NCBI GenBank assembly: GCA_029256085.1
Contig: JAQSYP010000003.1
Coordinates: 67,891-127,192 of the forward strand
Direction: 5' to 3'
From: Caryophanales bacterium
Lineage (GTDB): Bacteria > Bacillota > Bacilli > CAJFEE01
DNA: 59,302 nucleotides
Part shown: positions 11,491 to 59,302 of the stretch, in pieces
How positions within the stretch are numbered: the first letter of the stretch is position 1
Layout: each line of letters opens with the position of its first letter
Notes under the pieces: model-generated
Told to the model about the DNA's origin: nothing
Databases searched by the model: none
The model's input: the letters and a program-made list of their open reading frames with translations, nothing else
Program-made: the position numbers and the translations under genes

Positions 11491-11934
11491 ATGAGAATTC
11501 TTTTCGTTTGTACAGGTAATACATGCAGAAGTCCTATGGCAGAAGCTATTCTAAAATATAATTTGCATAATACGCATCAAGTTGAATCAGCAGGTATATA
11601 CGCTTTTCCAGGGCAAAGCATTTCTGATAACGCCGACTACGTTCTAAAAAAAAATAATATTAGTCACATTCATACTTCTAGACTATTGACGCAAGATCTA
11701 ATAGAGCATGCTGATTTAGTATTAACAATGACTTCGAATCACAAGAATGCCTCACTAAGTATAATCAATGATTTAAATAAAATTTTTACAATAACTGAAT
11801 ACGTAGGGGAAGATAACCAGTTTGACATAATCGATCCCTACGGTGGTGATGTAGGAATATATGAGGCGACTTTCAAACAGCTTAGCATTCTTATTGATAA
11901 GCTTATTAAAGTATTAAACGAGGGGAAGAGCTAA
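11491..11934 (+). CDS. ywlE: Protein-arginine phosphatase YwlE
   Basis: This 147-residue low-molecular-weight phosphatase has the P-loop [13 protein letters not shown], with nucleophile Cys7 and Arg13, and the general-acid DPYGGD loop near residue 118. The threonine after the first cysteine distinguishes the arginine phosphatase YwlE, which reverses McsB phosphorylation, from tyrosine phosphatases. The ATG at 11491 follows AAGGGG. It ends one base before the chemoreceptor gene, so both are probably translated from one mRNA. Its own transcript likely starts after the mntP terminator. Confidence 0.93.
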
Positions 11935-11935
11935 A

Positions 11936-13225
11936 ATGGACAAACGAAACAGTTCAAGTTTAAAAACGAAATTTGTGCTTTATATGAGTATAGTTGCGGC
12001 TATTACATACTCTACTAGTGCTGTGTTTATTCAATTCATCTTTGATTATGTACAAGAGTATCTACCATTTGGAAAAAATATGTTTATGTACTTAACTTTT
12101 CTACTTGGAGTTGTTTGGACAGGAATACTATCTTATGTAGCTGCACTGTTAATAACTAAGCCGATTGAGAGGTTGAGAGATGTTGCTCTTGAAGTTGCTG
12201 ATGGTAACATCAATGTAGAAGTTCCATTACCAAAATCTGATGATGAGATAAAGGCTCTTGGTCTAGCGTTTCAAGAAATGGTTAATAACCTTAAAAAAAT
12301 AGTTAATAATATAGAATGTAACTTTGAAAATACTAATAAAAAAGTAATTCAAATAAAAGATGTATCTAATAGAGCGTCGGAAACTTCAAATATTATTGCT
12401 AAAACTATTAGTGATATTTCCGTAGGAGCTAAGGACTCAGCTGAAGCATGTGTTAGCACTGCTGAAAAAATGCATGAGGTATTGGGTATTGCTGAAGAGG
12501 TTAAAGAAAAGGCAGAGGGATCTAGTAATATGACCTCTGAATTAGTTACAGTTTTAAATGAGAGTAATGAAATTATTAGCTCCTTAATAGAGGGTATTAT
12601 TGAAGTAAAAGATAATAATAATGAGTTGTTGACTAGTGTTAGTAGACTAGAAGTGAATGCTAAGGAAGTCGAAAAGATAATTGGATTAGTTGGAAGTATT
12701 GCAGGGCAAACTAACCTCCTAGCATTAAATGCTTCTATTGAGGCTGCTAGAGCAGGTGAGCACGGCAGAGGATTTGCAGTTGTTGCAGATGAAGTAAGAT
12801 CTCTTGCAGATCAAAGCGCACAAGCAGTACATGGCATTACTACGCTAATTAAAAGTATACAAGATGAAGTCCAAACAGTAGTTAGGGAAATTGGAAACCA
12901 AGTCGAAAAAATAAATAACGAGTCAGAAAAAGGTGCTACGACTAACTCTGCAATCCAAAGAGTTTCTAGTAAAGTAGAAAGTGTTGCTACCGCAGTAAAT
13001 GAAATTAAAGATTTAGTGGATATACAAGTTAAAAATATTGAGATTGCTAATCACCAAAGTCAAGAGTTATCTGCAATCTCAGAAGAAACTTCGGCTGGAG
13101 CGTTTGAGGTTGCTGCTTCAGCACAATCACAAAAATCCGATATGGAAAGTGTGTATGAATTAACTAAAGAGTTATCTAAAGAAGCAAATAAACTTAATGA
13201 AACGATAAGTGTTTTCAAGAAGTAA
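11936..13225 (+). CDS. Methyl-accepting chemotaxis-type receptor without extracellular sensor
   Basis: This 429-residue protein has two transmembrane helices (about 12-34 and 46-70) with only about 12 residues between them, so no periplasmic ligand domain. A HAMP segment (about 72-125) follows, then a long coiled-coil signalling domain with the tip [31 protein letters not shown], which binds CheA/CheW. Typical methylation-helix glutamates are present. It starts one base after ywlE, an insertion into the B. subtilis-type ywl gene order. Its stimulus is unknown; membrane state, proton motive force or a cytoplasmic signal are possible. Confidence 0.9.
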
Positions 13226-39302: not shown

Positions 39303-40301
39303 TTGCGTACCATTTTAGTTAATCCTATTAGTTTTGTCGTGGCAATTTTAGCAGTAGTTATTCTATTAATTCCATCCTTAGTAGTATTACCATATCGGGC
39401 AGGACCAGTTAATAAAATAGATTCCATTCCGGTAAATACAACTGAAAAAGTTAATTCACCTAAACCTATTAAAGGTAAGGTAGTTGAAGTAGCAGTTTAT
39501 AGAGCAGCTCTCGCAAAAACAGAAAAGCTCCCTATCGATGATTATTTAGTAGGGGTAGTTGCAGCAGAAATGCCAGCCGACTTTGAGCTCGAGGCATTGA
39601 AGGCACAAGCATTAACTGCGAGAACTTTCATTATGAAGAGAATGAAGGGCCCACAAGATACAGGTTTACCAGGTGGTGCAATCGTTTCGGATACTGTTGA
39701 TCACCAAGTCTACAAAAATAAGAATGAACTTAAGAAGATTTGGGGATCAGAATACGAGTGGAAACTTAATAAAATAACAGCAGCAGTTCGGGCGACATCA
39801 GGTCAGATCATAACATATAATGATGAGCCAATTACAGCATCATTTTTTTCAACTAGTAACGGATACACCGAGAACTCGGAAGACTACTGGGCCAATAAAT
39901 TTCCTTACTTACGATCGGTAAAAAACCCATGGGACGAGGATTCTCCTAAATTCCTGCATCAAAAATTAGTCTTAATAAAAGATTTTGAAAAAATTTTAGG
40001 AGTTTCGATAAAGGGGAAATCAATTGGTGTTATAAAAGCAAGGACAGAAGGACATCGTGTAAAGGAAGTTAGCATTGGCAGTAAGGTATTTACTGGTCGT
40101 GAAATCCGTGAAAAACTAGATTTAAAATCCTCAGACTTTACATGGGTGAAAAAGGATGAATATATCGTAATAACAACTAAAGGTTACGGACACGGTGTAG
40201 GAATGAGCCAATATGGCGCAAACGGCATGGCAAAAAAAGGTAAAACTTACGAAGAAATTATAGATTTCTACTATAAAGATGTAAAAATAAAGAGAATGTG
40301 A
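39303..40301 (+). CDS. spoIID: Stage II sporulation protein D, peptidoglycan lytic transglycosylase
   Basis: This 332-residue membrane-anchored enzyme cuts glycan strands during engulfment, together with SpoIIM and SpoIIP, in the mother cell. It has one N-terminal transmembrane helix (about 9-29), then the SpoIID domain with VVAAEMPADFELEALKAQALTARTF and the C-terminal GYGHGVGMSQYGANGMAKKG. The start is TTG 39303 after GGGAGGGTG. In Bacillus it is under sigma-E. Confidence 0.95.
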   Translation: MRTILVNPISFVVAILAVVILLIPSLVVLPYRAGPVNKIDSIPVNTTEKVNSPKPIKGKVVEVAVYRAALAKTEKLPIDDYLVGVVAAEMPADFELEALKAQALTARTFIMKRMKGPQDTGLPGGAIVSDTVDHQVYKNKNELKKIWGSEYEWKLNKITAAVRATSGQIITYNDEPITASFFSTSNGYTENSEDYWANKFPYLRSVKNPWDEDSPKFLHQKLVLIKDFEKILGVSIKGKSIGVIKARTEGHRVKEVSIGSKVFTGREIREKLDLKSSDFTWVKKDEYIVITTKGYGHGVGMSQYGANGMAKKGKTYEEIIDFYYKDVKIKRM

Positions 40302-40316
40302 TAGTTAAATATTATG

Positions 40317-40360
40317 ATACGACATTATCCAAAAGTAATTGGTGTGTCGTATTATTTTTT
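40317..40360 (+). terminator. Terminator after spoIID
   Basis: atacgaca at 40317-40324 pairs with tgtcgtat at 40345-40352, followed by a T-rich run. It separates spoIID from the cassette that follows. Confidence 0.75.
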
Positions 40361-40474: not shown

Positions 40475-40486
40475 TTGTCACGACAA
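40475..40486. promoter_or_regulatory. Small dyad upstream of the cassette
   Basis: TTGTC-AC-GACAA is an exact 5-bp dyad 39 bp before the aldolase start. The left half also reads as a -35-like TTGTCA. It could be an operator or part of a promoter; no matching -10 box at normal spacing was seen. Confidence 0.3.
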
Positions 40487-40525: not shown

Positions 40526-42151
40526 ATGAGTGAAATCCGTTTTTTAGACTGCACACTCCGTGATGGTGGATATTACAACTCTTGGGATTTTGATAGTAAG
40601 TTAATTAATGAATATTTGAAAGCAATGGACGAAATATCTGTGGATTATGTTGAACTAGGATTACGTAGCTTCAGTAAGGATGGCTTTAAAGGAGCATGTG
40701 CTTATACAACTGATAATTTTATTAATAGCTTAGAAATACCAGATGGTTTGAAAATAGGAGTAATGATCAATGCGGGTGATTTACTATTACACCCAGATGG
40801 AATAGAAACTGCATTAACGAAACTATTTGCACCAGCAACAGAATCTCCTGTTACTTTAGTTCGTATCGCATGCCATGTACATGAGTTTGAGAAAGCTTTG
40901 TCAGCCTCATTTTGGTTAAAAGAACAAGGATATACTGTTGGGTATAATCTAATGCAAATTGCTGATCGTAGTTTTACAGAAATTAAAGAAATAGCTACAA
41001 TGGCAAATGTCTATCCATTAGATGTACTGTACTTCGCAGATAGCATGGGCAGTCTTACACCGCAACAAATATCTGAAATAGTTATGGTAATTCGTAGCGC
41101 TTGGAAAGGTCCTCTTGGTATTCATACACATGATAACATGGGCTATGCACTAGCTAACTCTATGCGTGCAGTTGAGGATGGAGTAACTTGGATAGATAGT
41201 ACAGTAACAGGCATGGGAAGAGGTCCTGGAAATGCTAAAACAGAGTATGTTGTTATTGAACTAGATAGTTATAGGGAGAAGAAAGTCAATTTAATTCCAC
41301 TATTAGAAATTATAAATGACAATTTCTATCCTATGAAGAAGAAATACAACTGGGGGACGAATACTTACTATTACCTTGCTGGTAAATATGGAATCCACCC
41401 TACGTATATTCAGGAAATGATTAATGATTCCAGATTTGAAGAGAATGATATTTTATCTGTTATTGATCATCTTAAATTAGAGGGCGGGAAAAAATTTAGT
41501 TTTGATAGATTAGCTTCTGCAAGAAATGTTTATTCAGGAAATCCAGAAGGAACATGGAGCCCTGCTAAAGAAATTAATGGTAGGGAAGTTGTAATACTAG
41601 GTACTGGGCCAGGAATTGTTAGATATAAGGAAGCTATAGAAGAATATATCAAGAGTTCAAACCCATATGTTATAGCCTTAAATACACAAGAAAATATTGA
41701 AGCGGAATTAATAGATATAAGAGCGGCTTGTCATCCTGTTCGACTTATGGCAGATTATAATACCCATGCAAAACTCCCACAGCCTTTAGCTACACCGTTA
41801 TCTATGTTAGACGATAAAATAAAAGAAGTGTTTAAGACAAAAGTAATAAAAGATTATGGTATTAGATGTGAGTCAAATACATTTAGATTCGAAGAAAATT
41901 ATTGTATAGTACCTACATCGTTGGTTATTGCGTATGCTCTAGCAATTGCTTCAAGTGGGAAATCGTCAAGAATTCTATTAGCTGGTTTTGACGGGTATAG
42001 TTCAGATGACAGCAGAAATATAGAAATGAATGAACTCATAAGCTTATATTCTAATAGTGAGGGAGCCTGCCCAATTACAGCTATAACTCCAACGCTATAT
42101 CAGGTTGATAAAGCGAGTGTTTATCAATTGTTAGGGGAGTATGTTAAATGA
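40526..42151 (+). CDS. DRE-TIM aldolase fused to an unassigned C-terminal domain
   Basis: The N-terminal part (about residues 1-280) is an HMGL/4-hydroxy-2-oxovalerate aldolase-type DRE-TIM barrel, with FLDCTLRDGGYYNSWDF, VELGLRSF, the metal-binding HTHDNMG and GMGRGPGNAKTE. Such enzymes make or break carbon-carbon bonds with pyruvate or an acyl donor. After a linker, residues about 350-541 start with VVILGTGPGIVRY, a Rossmann-like glycine motif, and contain RILLAGFDGYSS. This domain loosely resembles DUF115/sialyltransferase-like folds, but I cannot assign it. The 541-residue length is far above the roughly 340 usual for the aldolase alone. It overlaps the next gene by 4 bp. The start is ATG 40526 after AAAGGGGATG. 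Confidence 0.8.
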   Translation: MSEIRFLDCTLRDGGYYNSWDFDSKLINEYLKAMDEISVDYVELGLRSFSKDGFKGACAYTTDNFINSLEIPDGLKIGVMINAGDLLLHPDGIETALTKLFAPATESPVTLVRIACHVHEFEKALSASFWLKEQGYTVGYNLMQIADRSFTEIKEIATMANVYPLDVLYFADSMGSLTPQQISEIVMVIRSAWKGPLGIHTHDNMGYALANSMRAVEDGVTWIDSTVTGMGRGPGNAKTEYVVIELDSYREKKVNLIPLLEIINDNFYPMKKKYNWGTNTYYYLAGKYGIHPTYIQEMINDSRFEENDILSVIDHLKLEGGKKFSFDRLASARNVYSGNPEGTWSPAKEINGREVVILGTGPGIVRYKEAIEEYIKSSNPYVIALNTQENIEAELIDIRAACHPVRLMADYNTHAKLPQPLATPLSMLDDKIKEVFKTKVIKDYGIRCESNTFRFEENYCIVPTSLVIAYALAIASSGKSSRILLAGFDGYSSDDSRNIEMNELISLYSNSEGACPITAITPTLYQVDKASVYQLLGEYVK

Positions 42152-42834
42152 AGATAACTTGTTTTTTGCCTTGTCGTAAAGGCAGTGAAAGAGTAAAAAA
42201 TAAAAATATTCGTCCTTTCTCAACATATGATAAAGGTTTAATAGAAATAAAACTTAAACAGCTAAGTAAAGTTGAGGAAATAGAAAAAATCATATTATCG
42301 ACAAATGATGAAGAAATAATAAATTACGCAGAACAAACTAGTATAAAAAATTTAGTAATTCATCGTAGGAATGATGAATTAGCAACAAGTCTAACTAGCA
42401 CTGACGACTTAATTATTCATGCAAGTTCGTTAATTACAGAAGGTCATGTTTTATGGACACATGTTACTTCGCCCTTCTTAAACTCAGAAGCCTATAGGAA
42501 AATAATTCTTGCCTATAAAGAGGGACTTGAACAAGGATATGATTCATTAATGACAACTTCCCCTATTCAAAGTTTTGTTTGGGGTGATAAGGGACCAATT
42601 AATTATGATAGAAATATAGAGAAATGGCCAAGAACGCAGACCCTTCCGTTATTACATGAAGTTAATAGTGCAGTGTTTCTCTCGAATATTGAAATTTATA
42701 ATAAAAATAAGGATAGAATCGGTGATAGACCTAGATTTTACCCTTTAACCAAAGTAGAAGGCTTAGATATTGATTGGCCAGAGGATTTTGAAATTGCTGA
42801 ATGCTTACTTAATGCAAAACTAGGAAGTATATAA
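42148..42834 (+). CDS. Acylneuraminate-type cytidylyltransferase
   Basis: This 228-residue protein matches the CMP-NeuAc synthetase/KdsB-related family, which activates 2-keto-3-deoxy acid sugars with CTP. The nucleotide-binding signature PCRKGSERVKNKN is at residues 9-21. LTSTDDLIIHA, HVTSPFL, EVNSAVFLS and GLDIDWPEDFEIAE, with acidic metal ligands, follow in the family order. It starts within the stop of the aldolase gene (ATGA) and ends one base before the HAD gene start. The true sugar is unknown. Confidence 0.88.
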   Translation: MKITCFLPCRKGSERVKNKNIRPFSTYDKGLIEIKLKQLSKVEEIEKIILSTNDEEIINYAEQTSIKNLVIHRRNDELATSLTSTDDLIIHASSLITEGHVLWTHVTSPFLNSEAYRKIILAYKEGLEQGYDSLMTTSPIQSFVWGDKGPINYDRNIEKWPRTQTLPLLHEVNSAVFLSNIEIYNKNKDRIGDRPRFYPLTKVEGLDIDWPEDFEIAECLLNAKLGSI

Positions 42835-42835
42835 T

Positions 42836-43492
42836 ATGGATTCACAAATAAAAGACTATGATATTTTTATTTTTGATTGTGATGGAGTTTTAATGGATGT
42901 AAACCTATTAAAATGTGAAGCTTTTGGCAAAGCTGTTGAAGGTTATCCATCCGAAACTGTAAAGGATTTTGTTAATCATTGCAAAAAAACTTTTGGAGTA
43001 TCAAGGTATGTAAAATTTAAAGAATTTTTTAGTGATTTTGCCAAGGAACCATTTCAAGAAACGAAATATAACAATTTACTTAAGAAATATTCATGTCTCT
43101 GTAGACAACTGTATAGCACAGCAAATATTACCCCAGGCTGTGAATCGCTACTGAATCAATTATCCAGCTTAAATAAGAAAATGTATGTTGCATCGGGTAG
43201 TGATGAAAAAGAATTAATTAAGGTTTTTAAGACTAGGGGACTTGATAAATATTTTTCCGGAATCTATGGGTCTCCTAAGACAAAATCAGAGTGCACTTCA
43301 ATTATTTTAAACAATAATCCTACTAAAAGAACTGTTTTTATAGGCGATGCTTTATCCGATTTGAAAACTGCTACAGAACATGGGATTGATTTTATTTATA
43401 TGTATAAATTCACAGTGCAAACTAAAGACCAAGACGAGAAATGCAGAAATGGAGCTGTCAAAGTTATAAATGTACTGGAGGATATTTTATAA
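42836..43492 (+). CDS. HAD-superfamily phosphatase
   Basis: This 218-residue hydrolase has all four HAD motifs: FDCDGVLMD (nucleophile aspartate), VASGSD (serine), the lysine in GSPKTKSE, and VFIGDALSDLKTA. A helical C1-type cap lies between motifs I and II. By analogy with KDO-8-phosphate and N-acylneuraminate-9-phosphate phosphatases, it could dephosphorylate the product of the aldolase before activation. It is the last gene of the cassette; no clear terminator follows in the 119 bp before spoIIQ. Confidence 0.85.
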   Translation: MDSQIKDYDIFIFDCDGVLMDVNLLKCEAFGKAVEGYPSETVKDFVNHCKKTFGVSRYVKFKEFFSDFAKEPFQETKYNNLLKKYSCLCRQLYSTANITPGCESLLNQLSSLNKKMYVASGSDEKELIKVFKTRGLDKYFSGIYGSPKTKSECTSIILNNNPTKRTVFIGDALSDLKTATEHGIDFIYMYKFTVQTKDQDEKCRNGAVKVINVLEDIL

Positions 43493-43611: not shown

Positions 43612-44292
43612 ATGAGAGAGGAAGAAAACAAGAAGTCTTCTCCAAAAGGGGTAAATTTAGTGAACAAAAAGTGGTTTTATCCAGCGCTTTATGTGGCAGT
43701 AGTATCAATTCTATTAATCGTTGCATTCGTAATGCAAGCTACTTCTGACCGTCCTATTGAAGTGGGACAGCCAAAAGATACTGGTTCAGGATCAAAGTCG
43801 GTTGTACCAGTAACTAAGAAAGAAGAAGTAATGCAGATGCCTATGTTAGACGATGACATGGCTGTAATTCAAAAGAAATTCTACGATGACAAAATGTCAG
43901 CTGAAGAGCAAGAAGCAGCTCTAGTATCATATAACAACACATTTACACCAAACACTGGAATTGACATTACGACAAAAGAAGGAAAATCTTTTGATGTTGT
44001 AGCTGCATTAAGTGGTACGGTAACTTCTGCGGAAAAAGATCCAGTATTAGGTAATATTGTAACAATTGATCATGGTAATGGTTTTGTTACATACTACCAA
44101 AGTCTTGGAACTGTTGCAGTTGAACCTGGTTCTCAAGTTGACCAAGGACAAGTTATTGCGACTGCTGGTACAAGCTTAGTAAACAAAGAAGCTGGAAACC
44201 ATGTTCATTTTGAATTACGTAAAGATGGCGTTGCTGTTAACCCAGCAGACGTTATGAACAAGACCCTTTCTTCAGTTAGCGAAGTAAAATAA
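43612..44292 (+). CDS. spoIIQ: Stage II sporulation protein Q (degenerate LytM domain)
   Basis: This 226-residue forespore membrane protein pairs with mother-cell SpoIIIAH across the intermembrane space to hold the membranes during engulfment and form the feeding-tube channel. It has one transmembrane helix (about 21-41) and a C-terminal M23/LytM domain. The first metal-ligand motif HxGxD reads NTGID, so the zinc histidine is replaced by asparagine, while the later HVHFEL is intact. Loss of this ligand fits the catalytically inactive Bacillus SpoIIQ. The start is ATG 43612 after GATGAGGTGATG. Confidence 0.94.
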   Translation: MREEENKKSSPKGVNLVNKKWFYPALYVAVVSILLIVAFVMQATSDRPIEVGQPKDTGSGSKSVVPVTKKEEVMQMPMLDDDMAVIQKKFYDDKMSAEEQEAALVSYNNTFTPNTGIDITTKEGKSFDVVAALSGTVTSAEKDPVLGNIVTIDHGNGFVTYYQSLGTVAVEPGSQVDQGQVIATAGTSLVNKEAGNHVHFELRKDGVAVNPADVMNKTLSSVSEVK

Positions 44293-53144: not shown

Positions 53145-54032
53145 GTGCGAGTAAGAAAAGCTATTATCCCAGCTGCAGGACTCGGAACCAGATTTTTACC
53201 CGCGACGAAAGCGCAGCCTAAAGAAATGTTACCAATAGTTGATAAACCTACAATACAGTACATAGTTGAGGAAGCTGTTGCTTCAGGAATTGAAGATATC
53301 TTAATAATAAGTGGTCGTGGTAAACGTGCAATCGAAGATCATTTTGATAAATCATACGAGCTCGAAGAAACGCTTGAAAAGAAAAATAAAAATAAGGAAC
53401 TAGAAAACATTAAGAAGATTTCACACCTTGCTAACATCCATTACATCAGGCAAAAAGAACCACGAGGACTTGGGGATGCAATAAATTGCGCAAGAACATT
53501 TATTGGTAATGAACCATTTGCAGTTATGCTAGGTGATGATATCGTGCAAGCTGACGTACCTTGTGTTAAACAACTAATGAACATCTATGATATACATCAA
53601 GTTCCAGTAGTAGGAGTCCAACAAGTTAGAGACGAGGATGTTGAGAAGTATGGGATTGTTAGTATAGAAGATGAGCTTGATGAAGGATTGTTCTCTGTAG
53701 GCACTTTTGTAGAAAAACCAAACGTGGATGATGCTCCATCCAATTTTGCGATAATGGGAAGATATATCCTTACGCCAGATATTTTTAATATTCTTCCAAA
53801 GTTGAGTGCAGGAGCTGGTGGAGAAATTCAGCTAACAGATGCATTATTGCAGTTAAATGAAGAAAGACCAATTTTCGCGTACGAATTTGAAGGTAATAGG
53901 TATGATGTAGGTGATAAATTAGGATTTGTCAAAGCGACAATCGATTTTGCGTTAATGAGGAATGACATTAGAGGGAATTTGTTAGATTATTTCCAAATGA
54001 AGCTTGATGAGTCGAAGTTACGAAAAAGATAA
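53145..54032 (+). CDS. gtaB: UTP-glucose-1-phosphate uridylyltransferase
   Basis: This 295-residue enzyme makes UDP-glucose from UTP and glucose-1-phosphate for teichoic acid glucosylation, glycolipids and exopolysaccharide. The N-terminal AIIPAAGLGTRFLPATKAQPKEMLP and DKPTIQYIVEEA are diagnostic, as is NRYDVGDKLGFVKATIDFAL. The start is GTG 53145 after GGGGG. It supplies the polysaccharide genes that follow. Confidence 0.95.
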   Translation: MRVRKAIIPAAGLGTRFLPATKAQPKEMLPIVDKPTIQYIVEEAVASGIEDILIISGRGKRAIEDHFDKSYELEETLEKKNKNKELENIKKISHLANIHYIRQKEPRGLGDAINCARTFIGNEPFAVMLGDDIVQADVPCVKQLMNIYDIHQVPVVGVQQVRDEDVEKYGIVSIEDELDEGLFSVGTFVEKPNVDDAPSNFAIMGRYILTPDIFNILPKLSAGAGGEIQLTDALLQLNEERPIFAYEFEGNRYDVGDKLGFVKATIDFALMRNDIRGNLLDYFQMKLDESKLRKR

Positions 54033-54044
54033 TTAAACAAAGTG

Positions 54045-54075
54045 ACCCATTAGTTCGAAGCTAATGGGTTTTTTC
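54045..54075 (+). terminator. Terminator after gtaB
   Basis: acccattag pairs with ctaatgggt and leads into six T. Confidence 0.9.
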
Positions 54076-54143
54076 TATTGTAAGCAAGGTCAGATATAAT
54101 GTTGAATGATAAGAGAAAAGATAGTAATCTGTAATAAGGCATC

Positions 54144-54311
54144 TCAACTAATAATAAAATAAACATTAATAGTAAAAGTAAAAACGTCACTAGAGTTTTA
54201 ATAAACAGTATGGGGATAGTGCTAATATTATTAGTAGGTTATATATTTTATTTATATCATGGTCTAAATAATAAATATGACACACTAGAAAAGAAAAAAT
54301 CTGGTAACTAG
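54144..54311 (+). pseudogene. Remnant of an LCP (LytR-CpsA-Psr) gene N-terminus
   Basis: The frame ending at the TAG at 54309-54311 encodes SKSKNVTRVLINSMG and then IVLILLVGYIFYLYHGLN and NKYDTLEKKKSGN. This follows the same pattern as the start of the intact LCP protein at 57139 (basic residues, one transmembrane helix, YxxGLDKTYSPLDRKKSD). There is no start codon or ribosome site upstream and no catalytic domain downstream. The only ATG is at 54210 inside the membrane helix. It looks like a decayed copy left at the head of the polysaccharide locus within a 415-bp gap; the remainder of the gap is AT-rich. Confidence 0.65.
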
Positions 54312-54396
54312 CACATTAAGAGAACATATAAAATTACATTAATCGAGTACAAACAACATTTTCCAATTAATTATTACAATTTTGAAATAATTAATA

Positions 54397-54405
54397 TGTT
54401 ATAAT
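54397..54405 (+). promoter_or_regulatory. Extended -10 promoter of ywqC-ywqD-ywqE
   Basis: TGT-TATAAT is a perfect extended -10 element about 45 bp before the ywqC start. The -35 region is weak (TTACAA at 54374, 20 bp away). Confidence 0.55.
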
Positions 54406-54447
54406 AAAACTTATTTAACGTAAAAGTGTATAACTTAGGAGGCGCTT

Positions 54448-55194
54448 ATGGAGGAGACAATTAGTTTTAAAGAATTTATTGGAATGCTAAAAAAACGTAC
54501 AAAGTTAATAGGGTTTATTACTATCTGTGCTCTATTAATTAGTGCTATAGTTAGTTTTTTTATTATGACCCCGATTTATCAATCATCATCTCAAATCTTA
54601 GTAAACCAAAACAAAAGTGGAGACGTAACATATGAGTTTAGTGAGGTTCAAACAAATCTACAACTTATAAACACTTATAATGTCATAATCAAAAGCCCTG
54701 CAATATTAGATATAGTTAGAAAGGAACTAGATTTAGATATTACTAGTCAACAATTAAATAATAAAATATCTGTCTTAGCAGAGAAGAACTCACAAATAGT
54801 TACCGTTTCTGTTCAAGATACAGATGCGGAGCAAGCTGCAGAAATTGCTAATAAAACTGTTGAAGTTTTCAAAAAAGAAATTGTAACTATAATGAATGTT
54901 GATAATGTAACTATTTTATCTAAAGCAGTTGCACTAGATGAACAAACTCCTATTAAACCTAAACCACTTCTAAATTTAACATTCGCACTAGTCGTAGGAT
55001 TTTTTATCGGGTTATGTCTAGCGTTTTTAATGGAGTACTTAGATAACACCGTCAAAAATGAGAATGATTTAGAAAAATTATTAGGACTCCCGGTACTTGG
55101 AGCTATAGGAGTAATTGATGAATCAAAGTCAGATCAAAGAGTACGTCGTGGAAAGAGAAGAAGAGAAGTAAGAGGTGAATCTATTGGTGTTTAA
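54448..55194 (+). CDS. ywqC: Wzz-type chain-length regulator and tyrosine-kinase activator YwqC
   Basis: This 248-residue protein has the Wzz topology: a cytoplasmic N-terminus, a first transmembrane helix (about 18-38), an extracellular domain, a second helix (about 174-194) preceded by the proline-rich TPIKPKPLLNL, and a basic cytoplasmic tail. In Gram-positive bacteria it activates the separate kinase encoded next and sets polymer length. The ATG at 54448 follows TAGGAGG. It overlaps ywqD. Confidence 0.92.
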   Translation: MEETISFKEFIGMLKKRTKLIGFITICALLISAIVSFFIMTPIYQSSSQILVNQNKSGDVTYEFSEVQTNLQLINTYNVIIKSPAILDIVRKELDLDITSQQLNNKISVLAEKNSQIVTVSVQDTDAEQAAEIANKTVEVFKKEIVTIMNVDNVTILSKAVALDEQTPIKPKPLLNLTFALVVGFFIGLCLAFLMEYLDNTVKNENDLEKLLGLPVLGAIGVIDESKSDQRVRRGKRRREVRGESIGV

Positions 55195-55882
55195 AGGAAA
55201 AACAAAATCAAATTTAAATAGCAAAAGAAAATTGATTGCAGCGAATGATCCAAAATCCCCAATTTCTGAACAATATAGAACAATCCGCACTAATATCCAA
55301 TTCTCAGTAATTGATACAGAACTTAGGTCGGTTATGGCCACATCATCTGTGCCAGGTGAAGGCAAATCAACAACTATTTCTAATCTTGCAGTTGTTTTTG
55401 CGCAACAAGGTAAAAAGGTTCTTTTAGTAGACGCTGACCTTCGAAAACCGACTATGCATTATACATTCAATCTATCAAATACAATAGGCCTTACTAGTGT
55501 GCTAACAAAACAATCTAGTCTAGCATTAGCAGTTAGAGAAATAGCTATTGAAAACCTATCAGTACTATCAAGTGGGCCAGTACCTCCTAACCCATCTGAA
55601 CTACTAGGCTCAAATGCTATGTTACATTTTTTAAACGATGCTTATAATATTTATGACTTAATATTATTTGATGCACCTCCAGTTTTAGCAGTGACAGATG
55701 CGCAAATTTTGTCTAATATCTGTGATGGTACAATATTTGTAGTCCATAGTGGTAAAACAGAGAAAGAATCTATCGTTAAAGCAAAGGAATTGCTACAATC
55801 AGCCAATACCAAGATTCTTGGAACTGTATTGAATAATAAAGAAATTAATGAAAATCAATATTATTACTATGGTAATGAATAA
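55184..55882 (+). CDS. ywqD: Bacterial tyrosine kinase YwqD
   Basis: This 232-residue BY-kinase has the P-loop SSVPGEGKSTT, Walker A' LLVDADLRKPT and Walker B LILFDAPP. The C-terminal tyrosine cluster YYYYGNE is the autophosphorylation site. The kinase phosphorylates polysaccharide enzymes such as UDP-glucose dehydrogenase. The frame opens at GTG 55175, but AGAGGTGA is best spaced for the TTG at 55184. It overlaps ywqC by 11 bp. Confidence 0.93.
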   Translation: MVFKGKTKSNLNSKRKLIAANDPKSPISEQYRTIRTNIQFSVIDTELRSVMATSSVPGEGKSTTISNLAVVFAQQGKKVLLVDADLRKPTMHYTFNLSNTIGLTSVLTKQSSLALAVREIAIENLSVLSSGPVPPNPSELLGSNAMLHFLNDAYNIYDLILFDAPPVLAVTDAQILSNICDGTIFVVHSGKTEKESIVKAKELLQSANTKILGTVLNNKEINENQYYYYGNE

Positions 55883-55985
55883 AGCAGAAATCGACAAAAA
55901 AACCCTCTTTACGGTGAAATTAGGCTTTGCTACTATATAAGAAGCTTTGATTTATTAGGGATTTTTAGAAGGGTGTGAAAAGCAT

Positions 55986-56747
55986 TTGATAGATTTACAT
56001 TGTCATATTTTACCGGGTATTGATGATGGCGCCCAAAATATGTTTGATAGCATTAGTATGGCAAAACAAGCTGTCAACGAAGGCATTCATTCTATTGTTG
56101 CTACTCCGCACTTTAATAGAACTTATAAAAATAGCAAGCAGTTAATTATTGAAAAAGTAGACTTGTTGAACGAGGCGCTTAAAAGAGAGAATATAAACCT
56201 TGTCATTTTACCGGGTCAGGAATCAAGAATTGATGGAAATATAATAGATGGTATTAATAATGAAGAAATAATAACTTTAGCAGGATCTTCTTATTTATTA
56301 ATAGAATTTCCATCAACAAATGTACCACGATATGTAGATCAACTTTTTTACGATCTACAAAACAAAGGTATTACCCCAATAATTGCACATCCAGAAAGAA
56401 ATCAAGAAATTATTGAACATCCAGATTTAATTTATAGACTAGTAAAAAATGGCGCTCTTTCTCAAGTTACAGCAGCAAGTTTAACTGGCTCTTTTGGAAA
56501 GAAAATTAAATTATTCTCAGAGCAGTTAGTTGAGTTTAATCTAGCACACTTTATTGCTTCTGATGCACATAATACCTCTAGTAGAGGTTTTAAGCTGCGT
56601 GAAGGTTATGAAGTTATTAAAAGTGTGTTTGGAACTGATTACGAATTTTCGTTTAAAGAAAATTCAGAATGTTTAATTAACAACTTTAACATACAGAAAG
56701 AAATTCCTGAACGTATTAAGAGAAAAAAGCTGTTTGGTATATTTTAA
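55986..56747 (+). CDS. ywqE: Tyrosine-protein phosphatase YwqE (PHP family)
   Basis: This 253-residue CpsB/Wzb-replacing phosphatase removes phosphate from the YwqD tyrosine cluster. Metal ligands of the PHP domain are visible: MIDLHCHILPGIDDG, ATPHFN, IAHPERN and SDAHN. The start is TTG 55986 with GAAGGGTG upstream. The 103-bp gap after ywqD has no terminator, so the three genes form one regulatory unit. Confidence 0.93.
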   Translation: MIDLHCHILPGIDDGAQNMFDSISMAKQAVNEGIHSIVATPHFNRTYKNSKQLIIEKVDLLNEALKRENINLVILPGQESRIDGNIIDGINNEEIITLAGSSYLLIEFPSTNVPRYVDQLFYDLQNKGITPIIAHPERNQEIIEHPDLIYRLVKNGALSQVTAASLTGSFGKKIKLFSEQLVEFNLAHFIASDAHNTSSRGFKLREGYEVIKSVFGTDYEFSFKENSECLINNFNIQKEIPERIKRKKLFGIF

Positions 56748-57138
56748 TTTTAATTTAATCTAGGGAGTAAAAAGGGATTTCCTTCATTGTGTTAAAATGA
56801 TTAAGTATTTTAATCTCCGCCTCGTGTTTCCCATCAAATTGCAGCAGACTATCTCTATTTATATTGCTGTAACTAATTAGGTGGTTTAAAAAAATAATAG
56901 GAATTAAGAATTTTATAATTGTGAAATTAAAAATGTTGTGGACTCCACAACATTTTTTTATACATAGTAACTTTTTTAAGACATTTTAGGCTTCTTAATA
57001 TATAATAAATAGGTTGTCGAATTAAGTCGACCAATATAGAAAGAATTTTAGATAAATTTGTAGTAAAATGGAAGAAGTCCTTTTTTTTGCAATGTTCTAT
57101 GTATTAAGTATAACTGATTTCAAAGGAGATTTTAAAAA
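56748..57138. other. Gap between ywqE and the LCP gene
   Basis: The gap contains the bidirectional terminator at 56930-56959. Between 56756 and 56900 the minus strand has an open frame of about 48 codons with protein-like composition (SLLQFDGKHEAEIKILNHF) but no start or ribosome site; it may be a decayed gene end. A small dyad gtcga/tcgac at about 57016-57030 lies upstream of the LCP gene. No promoter is convincing. Confidence 0.5.
56930..56959 (+). terminator. Terminator after ywqE
   Basis: The perfect stem aaaatgttgtgga / tccacaacatttt with a 2-base loop is followed by T, and preceded by A, so it can act on both strands. Confidence 0.88.
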
Positions 57139-58071
57139 GTGGAAAATAGAAGATCAACAGTAAAAAATAAAATTAAAAAAAAGAAAATATATAGAATTAT
57201 ATTAATCATGACGGTTTTGTTTTGTGTGGTTTTACTAGGATATAGTTATTATATTTATAAGGGGCTAGATAAAACATATTCCCCATTAGATAGAAAAAAA
57301 TCAGACTTAAGACAAACGAAGGTCTCTATTAAAAATAATGACCCAATATCTATACTCTTACTTGGGGTAGATGAACGCAAGGGTGATAGAGGAAGATCAG
57401 ATACAATGATAGTTGTTACTCTAAATCCTATAGAAAAAACAATGAAAATGTTAAGTATACCTCGTGATACAAGAACTGAAATAGTTGGTAAAAATAAACT
57501 TGATAAGATTAATCATTCATATGCTTTTGGTGGGGTCAAAATGTCAATAGAAACAGTAGAAAAACTCCTTGATATTCCCATAGACTATTATGCCAAGGTA
57601 AATATGGAAGGTCTTTCTGAATTAGTTGACCAAGTCGGTGGGATAGAAGTTAACAGTTCTATATCATTCCGACAAGATACTTCAGTTTTTGTGCAGGGTA
57701 ATAATAAGTTAAATGGGAAGGATGCATTAACTTATGTTAGGATGCGTAAAGAAGATCCTAAAGGTGATTTTGGGCGTCAAGAAAGGCAACGACAAGTTAT
57801 TGAGGCTATCTTAACAAAAAGTATGAACATAACAACTGTGAATAAAATTTCAGGTATTGTAAATGCAATTGGTGATAATATTGAAACAAATATTAAAACA
57901 ACAAGTGCACTTGATTTACGAAAGGGATATTTACCAGCGACAAAAACTAGTGAAACACTTGCGTTAAAAGGTAAAGGAAGCAAAATTAATGGAGTATACT
58001 ACTACATTGTTGATGAAACTACAAAACAAGATATATCAAATAGACTAAGACAACACTTAGAGCTAAACTGA
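57139..58071 (+). CDS. LCP-family (LytR-CpsA-Psr) glycopolymer transferase
   Basis: This 310-residue membrane-anchored enzyme attaches teichoic acids or other glycopolymers to peptidoglycan outside the cell. It has a basic N-terminus and one transmembrane helix (about 20-42). The LCP domain has ILLLGVDERKGDRGRSDTMIVVTLNP, SIPRDTRTEI, LDKINHSYAFGG, VDQVGGIEV and the arginine-rich GDFGRQERQRQVI. The start is GTG 57139 after AAAGGAG. It resembles Bacillus TagU/TagV/TagT; which polymer it serves is probably set by the adjoining polysaccharide locus. Confidence 0.93.
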   Translation: MENRRSTVKNKIKKKKIYRIILIMTVLFCVVLLGYSYYIYKGLDKTYSPLDRKKSDLRQTKVSIKNNDPISILLLGVDERKGDRGRSDTMIVVTLNPIEKTMKMLSIPRDTRTEIVGKNKLDKINHSYAFGGVKMSIETVEKLLDIPIDYYAKVNMEGLSELVDQVGGIEVNSSISFRQDTSVFVQGNNKLNGKDALTYVRMRKEDPKGDFGRQERQRQVIEAILTKSMNITTVNKISGIVNAIGDNIETNIKTTSALDLRKGYLPATKTSETLALKGKGSKINGVYYYIVDETTKQDISNRLRQHLELN

Positions 58072-58195
58072 CAGTCACATTTCCATAATGATGCAAATAA
58101 AAAGTAGATTATGTGTGATATAATTACTTTGAATTTTAATAGGTACTTACTAAAAATGACTTTATATAAATTATGTTTAGGGGGGAATTACTGCG

Positions 58196-59302
58196 GTGTG
58201 GTATAGATTAAGGTTTACTACTTTAGTGGTTTTAGATTCCATTCTCGTTTTAACAGCATTGTTTTTTAGCTACGGTCCTTTACACCCTACAATAAAATTA
58301 AGTAATGAAGATTTAGTCTTTAGTGGGATATTTCTCGTCATAAGTCATTTTACATTTGCAGGTGTTTATCGTCTATATAAAAAGGCTTGGGAATATGCTA
58401 GCGTTGGAGAATTAATAGTTATTACTAAATCTGTAACTTTTGCTGTACTTTCAACAGGTTTATTTCAAATATTAACAAATAATCTAATTAGCTTTAGGGC
58501 GTTAATTAGTACTTGGATGCTTTATACAATACTTTTAGGTGGATCACGTTTAATTTGGAGAATGTTTAGAGACCGATATATAAGTCCTACATCGTCAAGA
58601 AATCGAACACTTATTATTGGAGCAGGATCTGGTGGTATTATGGTTGCACGTCATTTACAAAAGAGTGTAGATGCAAAGTTGAAACCAGTTGCCTTTATAG
58701 ATGATGATTATAGAAAACAAAAACTACATTATTTAGGGCTACCTGTAGTAGGTGGCACTTCGGAGATTAAAAATGTAGTATCGGAATTTCAAATAGAAAA
58801 TATTGTAATTGCAATACCTTCATTGAGCAAAAAAGAATTGAACAGAATTTTTGATGAATGTTCAAAGACAAATGCAAAAACAAAAATTATTCCAAAATTA
58901 GAAGATATAATGACTGGAAAGATCTCAGTAAATAATTTCCGTGATGTTCAAGTTGAAGACTTATTAGGAAGAGAACCTGTGAAATTAGACATTGAAAAAA
59001 TCTCTGAATCAGTTACGAATAAAACTATTTTGGTTACTGGAGCGGGTGGGTCTATTGGATCTGAAATTTGTAGACAAATCCGCAGCTTTTCACCTGCTAA
59101 AATCGTCCTAGTTGGACATGGTGAAAACAGTATCTATCAGATTGACATGGAACTACGTAAGCATAATGCTGATAATGTGGAAATTATCCCTGTTATCGGC
59201 GATATACAGGATAGAAAAAGAATGTTTGAGGTAATGGAGGAATTCCGTCCTCATGTTGTATATCATGCAGCAGCACATAAGCATGTACCTTTAATGGAAT
59301 AT
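58196..59302 (+). CDS. Membrane-bound UDP-sugar epimerase/dehydratase (5' part only)
   Basis: The gene runs off the window after 369 codons. It starts with about four transmembrane helices (residues 1-120), followed by a first Rossmann domain (LIIGAGSGGIM, about residue 140) and a second, SDR-type one at about 278 (LVTGAGGSIGSEICRQI). The segment HVVYHAAAHKHVPLME at the edge is typical of the FlaA1/CapD/EpsC family, which converts UDP-GlcNAc to dehydrated or epimerised sugars at the first step of capsule synthesis. GTG 58196 follows AGGGGGGAA. Confidence 0.92.
   Translation, partial: MWYRLRFTTLVVLDSILVLTALFFSYGPLHPTIKLSNEDLVFSGIFLVISHFTFAGVYRLYKKAWEYASVGELIVITKSVTFAVLSTGLFQILTNNLISFRALISTWMLYTILLGGSRLIWRMFRDRYISPTSSRNRTLIIGAGSGGIMVARHLQKSVDAKLKPVAFIDDDYRKQKLHYLGLPVVGGTSEIKNVVSEFQIENIVIAIPSLSKKELNRIFDECSKTNAKTKIIPKLEDIMTGKISVNNFRDVQVEDLLGREPVKLDIEKISESVTNKTILVTGAGGSIGSEICRQIRSFSPAKIVLVGHGENSIYQIDMELRKHNADNVEIIPVIGDIQDRKRMFEVMEEFRPHVVYHAAAHKHVPLMEY

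Follow-up and report, generated by a model that had tools for sequence, protein, structure and literature searches.

A putative aldolase-based gene cassette for making a CMP-activated acidic sugar in a Caryophanales bacterium

Sialic, legionaminic and pseudaminic acids and 3-deoxy-D-manno-octulosonic acid (Kdo), which are activated with cytidine monophosphate (CMP), are major components of bacterial surfaces. To our knowledge, the described routes to CMP-activated acidic sugars all form the key C–C bond from phosphoenolpyruvate (PEP). Here we analyse a 59,302-nucleotide stretch of a Caryophanales genome (assembly GCA_029256085.1, contig JAQSYP010000003.1; hereafter the window) that carries a compact cassette of three genes, encoding an aldolase-type fusion protein (ALD), a cytidylyltransferase (CT) and a HAD phosphatase (HAD). 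On balance, we favour the view that the cassette supplies, on its own, a surface polysaccharide with a CMP-activated acidic sugar, made through ALD, HAD and CT steps. Open-access titles and abstracts yielded no description of such a cassette, and one of the searches returned mostly catabolic aldolases.

Co-inheritance and gene fusion

The ALD and CT genes share a 4-bp ATGA overlap and the CT and HAD genes are spaced by 1 bp. A model that had read only the letters of the window and a list of its open reading frames (the original prediction) took the three genes for a single unit, and both the frame coordinates and the recurrence of the arrangement elsewhere bear this out. About 85,000 species genomes were scanned and gave 22 relatives of ALD, among others in Bacillaceae, Halomonadaceae, Marinobacter, Idiomarina, Thiomicrorhabdus, a Methylovulum, SAR86, a flavobacterium and a planctomycete. 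In sampled surveys the gene was present in 7 of 369 Gammaproteobacteria, in 9 of 395 Bacteroidota (eight of them in a more distant branch) and in a single one of 399 Bacilli, the source genome itself. The ALDs of Bacteroidota cassettes score 208–238 bits on the ALD profile, against roughly 900–1000 for close ALDs.

For the tree set we used 33 bacterial ALD loci from Bacillota, Gammaproteobacteria and Bacteroidota (loci and genomes are given below with L and G numbers). A CT lies within 4 kb of ALD in 31 of these loci according to hidden Markov models (HMMs) and in a 32nd, L008, according to its reading frame; a HAD phosphatase lies within the same distance in 30. The four best matches to the window CT family among 339 Gammaproteobacteria all fall in ALD-bearing genomes. 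ALD also occurs on three Leisingera plasmids, and in the one inspected CT and HAD follow it; the annotations there are 'aldolase catalytic domain-containing protein', '3-deoxy-manno-octulosonate cytidylyltransferase' and 'HAD family hydrolase'. The joint inheritance on which the original prediction had staked its case is thus found across phyla, and recurrence in at least three phyla rules out a chance neighbourhood of the three genes. The cassette is a real and old unit. Its neighbours are enzymes of nucleoside diphosphate sugars, glycosyltransferases and flippases, and nearly all of the loci are polysaccharide loci.

The aldolase is tied to CMP activation because viral reading frames fuse the two. 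IMG/VR contigs contain frames of 552–574 amino acids in which an ALD barrel is followed by a KdsB-type CT (in L110, PF00682 at 11–256 and PF02348 at 338–542). The 17 fusion contig loci form 7 clusters at 90% identity; L110 and L115 are one contig, and one fusion frame is truncated by a contig end. The KdsB-like part retains the substrate Gln. Several fusion loci on marine viral contigs encode, as a separate protein, the AGGPSL-type motif of the MptE-like fold, detected by HMM in L110 and L123 and in L110 also by Pfam, just below the cut-off. In bacteria, the barrel is joined to a sialyltransferase-fold domain and the CT stands apart; in the viruses, the barrel is joined to the CT and the sialyltransferase-fold protein stands apart. 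These two patterns link aldolase, CT and sialyltransferase-fold part, the last most loosely. The fusions appear only in IMG/VR contigs: the phage genome collection contained no copy, and no PHROGs family was found for the fusion protein. Glycosyltransferase-like and MptE-like genes lie near the viral fusions (L110, L115–L130), and four contigs (L124–L126 and L130) additionally hold a PseF-like CT and a NeuB-like gene.

Domains and conserved residues

None of the three proteins attains the cut-off of a functional NCBIfam equivalog, and the family calls of the original prediction agree with the matches to PF00682, PF02348 and HAD_2. The HMGL-like family PF00682 covers ALD residues 4–249. The best named NCBIfam model, 4-hydroxy-2-oxovalerate aldolase (TIGR03217), gives 107 bits against a cut-off of 286, so that ALD is not a member. 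ALD does have the features of the HMGL-like DRE-TIM superfamily, namely the PF00682 match, the Arg-Asp motif (within LDCTLRDGGYYNxWDF) and the His-x-His metal site, and its R12, D13, H200 and H202 correspond to the metal/enolate site of 1nvm (residue mapping, profile E 1e-23). Among solved structures, PDB 3dxi, a 'putative aldolase', comes closest to the barrel (profile E 1e-63).

Residues 332–541 of ALD were modelled by AlphaFold2 with a mean pLDDT of 93.5; the full-length model has a pTM of 0.61 and a poorly predicted linker. The original prediction had rightly called the protein a fusion, and these residues do make up a second domain with its own fold, although it had not recognised that fold as that of sialyltransferases. 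Structural matches include Maf (5mu5, Z 14.3) and CstII (1ro8, Z 11.0), but also the archaeal MptE kinase (HPPK, 8sd5; Z 12.5) and SteA (Z 12.4), with human sialyltransferases at Z about 8. Since MptE kinase and SteA have this fold too, it leaves the function unfixed when taken alone. Profile-profile comparison links the domain to the MptE-like proteins of cassette loci. The central domain of Maf belongs to the same Pfam family as MptE-like proteins and resembles CstII, and both CMP-Neu5Ac and CMP-Kdo can be used by a clostridial Maf (PMC11339370).

About 30 residues are missing after the G-x-D motif of the ALD domain, where stand-alone relatives have a lid region that in most of them contains a His. 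The spacing from GFDGY to ITPT, counted between motifs and not on a structure-based residue map, is about 33 residues with no His in ALD and about 62 residues with a His in the protein L026_11. The catalytic His of GT42 enzymes presumably lies in this lid. Because it seems to have neither the lid nor the base that active GT42 enzymes possess, the modelled domain may serve in the binding or hand-over of a CMP-sugar or its precursor rather than as an active transferase, a role that we propose with low confidence. In L015, a GT29-family protein is encoded immediately upstream of ALD. Homology between the ALD domain and the N-domain of a NeuB fusion in L023 was considered and not established (hhalign probability 1.6%). 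The L023 fusion (11676–13220) is a 514-residue protein with a GKGAS-type Rossmann-like region at its N-terminus and the NeuB domain at its C-terminus; the NeuB match in the genome of L012 likewise lies in a 514-residue frame.

The window CT is nearest to the PseF model TIGR03584, without reaching its cut-off (61.6 against 205.7 bits). Its scores with KdsB models are at most 25 bits, against cut-offs of 155–255, so it is not KdsB; the CT of L005 reaches 288 bits with the KdsB model PRK13368. With PF02348, the P-x-R-x-G-S-x-R loop and the metal-binding DxD, the window CT has the features of the CTP_transf_3 superfamily. The CT tree splits into CTk, CTp1 and CTp2. CTp1 comprises ten loci from three phyla, including the window, none of them with an HpcH/HpaI aldolase gene, and CTp2 proteins all occur with one; the divergent L064 CT does not group with them, and L065 joins them with weak support. 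Halomonas alkaliantarctica (G066) has two complete ALD-CTk-HAD cassettes 16 kb apart (C3:104971, L010; C3:121435, L053). The HAD proteins have the features of HAD-IA phosphatases, and the motifs DxD, Ser/Thr, Lys and GDxxxD are intact in 30–31 of 31.

A proposed pathway and its alternatives

There is good support for the unit as such, for a link with CMP activation and for a role in surface glycans: the co-inheritance, the ALD-CT fusion, the intact catalytic residues of HAD, the metal site of CT, the independence from NeuB and KdsA described below and the polysaccharide context. We infer the substrates, the C–C bond step, the structure of the product and the role of the second ALD domain. ALD would add an enolate, from pyruvate or a similar 2-keto acid, to a phosphorylated aldehyde; HAD would dephosphorylate the 3-deoxy-2-ulosonate phosphate so formed; and CT would couple the free acid to CMP. 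The order of steps would be that of KdsA-KdsC-KdsB, with an aldolase replacing the PEP-dependent synthase, and the second ALD domain would probably bind the CMP-sugar or its precursor, for feedback or hand-over. The original prediction had outlined a pathway of this kind. Co-inheritance and fusion to CT speak for it, and its aldol step is putative. The cassettes look like an undescribed variant of the CMP-ulosonate pathway. A more specific version is tentative, and we would not yet bet on it: that the route is independent of PEP, that ALD makes an unrecognised 3-deoxy-2-ulosonic acid from pyruvate, that the second domain handles the CMP product, that three exchangeable CT modules vary the products, and that viruses carry the aldolase-CT protein as a means of altering surface glycans. 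A literature search on one possible product, the pentulosonic-acid capsule of Klebsiella K38, found nothing. If the proposal is true, an aldolase-based unit in several phyla and in viruses adds a route to such sugars, and probably new monosaccharides to capsules and exopolysaccharides, and gives a function to a family whose sole name at present is 'aldolase catalytic domain-containing protein'.

Several observations weigh against the proposed ALD-HAD-CT scheme. No aldehyde substrate is indicated by the evidence. In all 19 aligned relatives Tyr16 of ALD stands at the position of the catalytic His, and we take His21 of 1nvm (H20 in BphI) to be the catalytic base of DmpG/BphI-type aldolases; ALD would form the C–C bond with Tyr where 4-hydroxy-2-oxoacid aldolases have His. 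Seven loci (L009, L013, L056, L057 and L063–L065) hold an HpcH/HpaI aldolase between ALD and CT, so that ALD need not be the sole C–C-forming enzyme there. A Streptomyces plasmid (L113) carries a stand-alone ALD and a HAD of similar sequence with no CT, beside an aldolase of the DHDPS family. Finally, the substrate site of CT is altered: the position of Gln104 in the meningococcal CMP-Neu5Ac synthetase is His in all ten CTp1 proteins, including that of the window, and Thr in most CTp2, and in place of Arg165, CTp1 proteins have Thr and CTp2 proteins mostly Ser, with Asn in one protein.

Most of these observations would fit a different division of labour, which we consider rather unlikely, in which a common precursor (keto acid or aldehyde) comes from ALD and HAD, the middle module (KdsB-like CT, CTp1, or HpcH with CTp2) sets the final sugar, and ALD is not the ulosonate synthase in every cassette. 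The type of CT is shuffled over the ALD tree. Among ALDs that are 85–92% identical, L008, L010 and L012 have a KdsB-like CT, L014 and L017 a PseF-like CT, and L009 an HpcH/HpaI aldolase with another PseF-like CT. With CT exchangeable in this way and a second pyruvate aldolase present in some loci, it is unlikely that all cassettes make one and the same product; the products probably differ, with ALD and HAD as the constant core. The confinement of HpcH to loci with CTp2, the Streptomyces pair without a CT and the missing base His of ALD also agree with a shared precursor. Yet CTk and CTp1 loci have no other condensing enzyme near, some of their genomes lack KdsA above the cut-off or NeuB (see below), and the viral fusion couples ALD straight to a KdsB-like CT that retains the substrate Gln, all of which favour ALD as the synthase. 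Stand-alone ALDs on Paraburkholderia and Mesorhizobium plasmids (L112, L114) occur with dehydrogenases and a different HAD; these two clusters and that of L113 resemble small-molecule clusters. A phosphonate pathway with CMP activation, in which a PEP mutase would act together with a homocitrate-synthase-like enzyme, was rejected: no PEP mutase was seen, and the additional gene of some loci belongs to PF03328, nearest to the HpaI and GarL aldolases.

The altered CT site could instead mean that the product is CMP-activated but not a 2-ulosonate: CTp1 and CTp2 would recognise a different small acid, of the hydroxy or keto type, in a site that lacks the customary Gln and Arg. In the meningococcal enzyme both residues play a part. 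Gln104 is an important residue for catalysis and for the binding of Neu5Ac, with Gln98 as its equivalent in a KdsB-type enzyme, and docking puts Arg165 at the carboxylate (PMC2901514). The legionaminic acid CT of the source genome retains both. We nevertheless regard such a product as improbable, given that KdsB-type CTs (CTk) in the same slot, beside ALDs about 90% identical, retain the Kdo-type Gln, and that CTp1 proteins keep the metal site and have an Arg one residue upstream of the Arg165 position. In a gapped HMMER alignment with 1eyr this Arg falls on Arg165, and it may compensate for the loss. An acid sugar is thus the probable, though not certain, substrate of the window CT with its changed carboxylate-binding site.

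Very improbable, in our judgement, is the remaining alternative, already named in the original prediction, that CT serves only a standard sugar (legionaminic acid or Kdo) from a complete pathway elsewhere and that its aldolase neighbour is incidental. The source genome (G000) does have a NeuB/Maf locus of legionaminic acid type (C15:183000-193500, L033), in a flagellar region about 80 kb from the cassette on the same contig, but this locus has its own CT beside two Maf-like flagellin transferase genes. There is no NeuB-family synthase inside the cassettes. NeuB has no match in 10 of 18 cassette genomes and only weak matches in four more, all Bacillaceae, where these coincide in place with weak KdsA-model matches and represent DAHP-synthase-like proteins. 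The PseF-type CTs of L011, L014 and L017 come from genomes that lack NeuB, and the KdsB-type CTs of L005 and L007 from genomes with no KdsA above the cut-off; G000, G061 and G063 have no KdsA above it. Many cassette genomes are drafts, and such absences are provisional. Judging from these genomes, the cassette needs neither a standard sialic-type pathway nor that of Kdo. Co-inheritance, the ALD-CT fusion and the altered substrate site likewise contradict an incidental neighbour. Where both systems share a locus (L024, with a complete kdsB-kdsA-kdsD-kdsC set), the cassette product is not simply Kdo, and the two probably serve different products.

Genomic setting and comparison with known systems

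The cassette lies between two sporulation genes (Table 1). In 26 of 29 other Bacilli genomes spoIID and spoIIQ are adjacent, with a gap of 80–1222 bp (90 bp in the only family relative); in the window they are 3.3 kb apart. The G+C content of the cassette (33.3%, against 34.8% for the window) gives no signal of foreign composition, and the case for a lateral arrival rests on the patchiness of the cassette among Bacilli and the closed spoIID-spoIIQ gap elsewhere. No convincing promoter for sporulation control was seen at the cassette. An inverted repeat, TTGTC-AC-GACAA (40475–40486), precedes the ALD start by about 40 bp and is possibly an operator.

Table 1. Features of the cassette and its surroundings in the window
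Feature	Positions	Strand	Description or basis
spoIID, left flank	39303..40301	+	homology and gene position, compared with 29 other Bacilli genomes
Probable spoIID terminator	40317..40352	+	hairpin ATACGACA...TGTCGTAT, then T run; by eye, as the loop exceeds the limit of the automatic scan
ALD, gene 1	40526-42151	+	541 aa, intact ORF
ALD N-terminal domain, residues 1-331	40526..41518	+	DRE-TIM barrel, 4-hydroxy-2-oxoacid aldolase branch; PF00682 E 8e-27
ALD C-terminal domain, residues 332-541	41519..42151	+	sialyltransferase/MptE-like fold; AlphaFold2, structural and profile comparison
CT, gene 2	42148-42834	+	228 aa, intact ORF; PseF/NeuA-related cytidylyltransferase, subtype CTp1; PF02348 E 5e-16, tree and motifs
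HAD, gene 3	42836-43492	+	218 aa, intact ORF; HAD-IA phosphatase, PGMB/YqaB-like; HAD_2 E 1e-15, motifs
spoIIQ-like gene, right flank	43612..44292	+	adjoins spoIID in other Bacilli
Exopolysaccharide locus, start	53145..59302	+	GtaB, Wzz/Wze/CpsB-like genes, LCP, CapD; runs past the window; synteny with L007

The original prediction saw no NeuB, epimerase or aminotransferase nearby, which holds for the immediate flanks; in a wider view, there are an exopolysaccharide locus 9.7 kb downstream and the legionaminic-type NeuB locus mentioned above. The exopolysaccharide genes in the window are syntenic with the cassette-holding locus L007 (GtaB 67% identical, CapD-like protein 69% and sugar transferase 73%). 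Past the end of the window, the locus matches both L005 and L007, from other Bacillaceae, in a trio of genes (PF02719 protein first, PF02350 protein last; 77–87%) and in the next two sugar enzymes (84–85%). In L005 the cassette sits between the trio and these two enzymes; in the source genome glycosyltransferase, EpsG and flippase genes sit there, and the cassette is upstream. Because the syntenic loci of L005 and L007 contain the cassette, the likely user of the activated sugar is the exopolysaccharide of the organism itself. As for the partner glycosyltransferase that the original prediction would look for, cassettes lie inside exopolysaccharide loci elsewhere and the syntenic locus is present here; no sialyltransferase-like gene was found in it.

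Among described enzymes, the 4-hydroxy-2-oxovalerate aldolases (DmpG, BphI; 1nvm) share with ALD the barrel branch, the metal ligands and the Arg. ALD differs in the Tyr in place of the catalytic His, in having no partner acetaldehyde dehydrogenase and in its fused sialyltransferase-fold domain. The protein of 3dxi has the RDGGYY motif and the H-x-H site, as in the Bacteroidota cassette aldolases, but the alignment spans only about 310 residues and the entry names no function. The Maf flagellin transferases and CstII (GT42) have the fold of the C-terminal domain, which, unlike them, is fused to an aldolase and appears to be without the lid region and its His.

With the nonulosonic acid pathways (NeuB/NeuA, Leg, Pse), the cassette has in common CMP activation by a NeuA/PseF-related PF02348 enzyme, surface-glycan use and a link to the Maf/CstII transferase fold. 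In contrast to those pathways, most cassette genomes have no NeuB, there is no dehydratase, aminotransferase or epimerase set, and the substrate-site residues of CT differ. The Kdo pathway follows the same logic, with a C–C synthase, a HAD phosphatase and a CTP_transf_3 cytidylyltransferase, and about half of the cassettes even have a KdsB-like CT. However, the cassette has an HMGL-like aldolase instead of the PEP-dependent KdsA and a PGMB-like phosphatase instead of one of the KdsC family, and it occurs in genomes that lack KdsA as well as next to a full Kdo set. The cassette would work like KdsA-KdsC-KdsB, yet it is not a member of the Kdo pathway, because the defining KdsA is absent.

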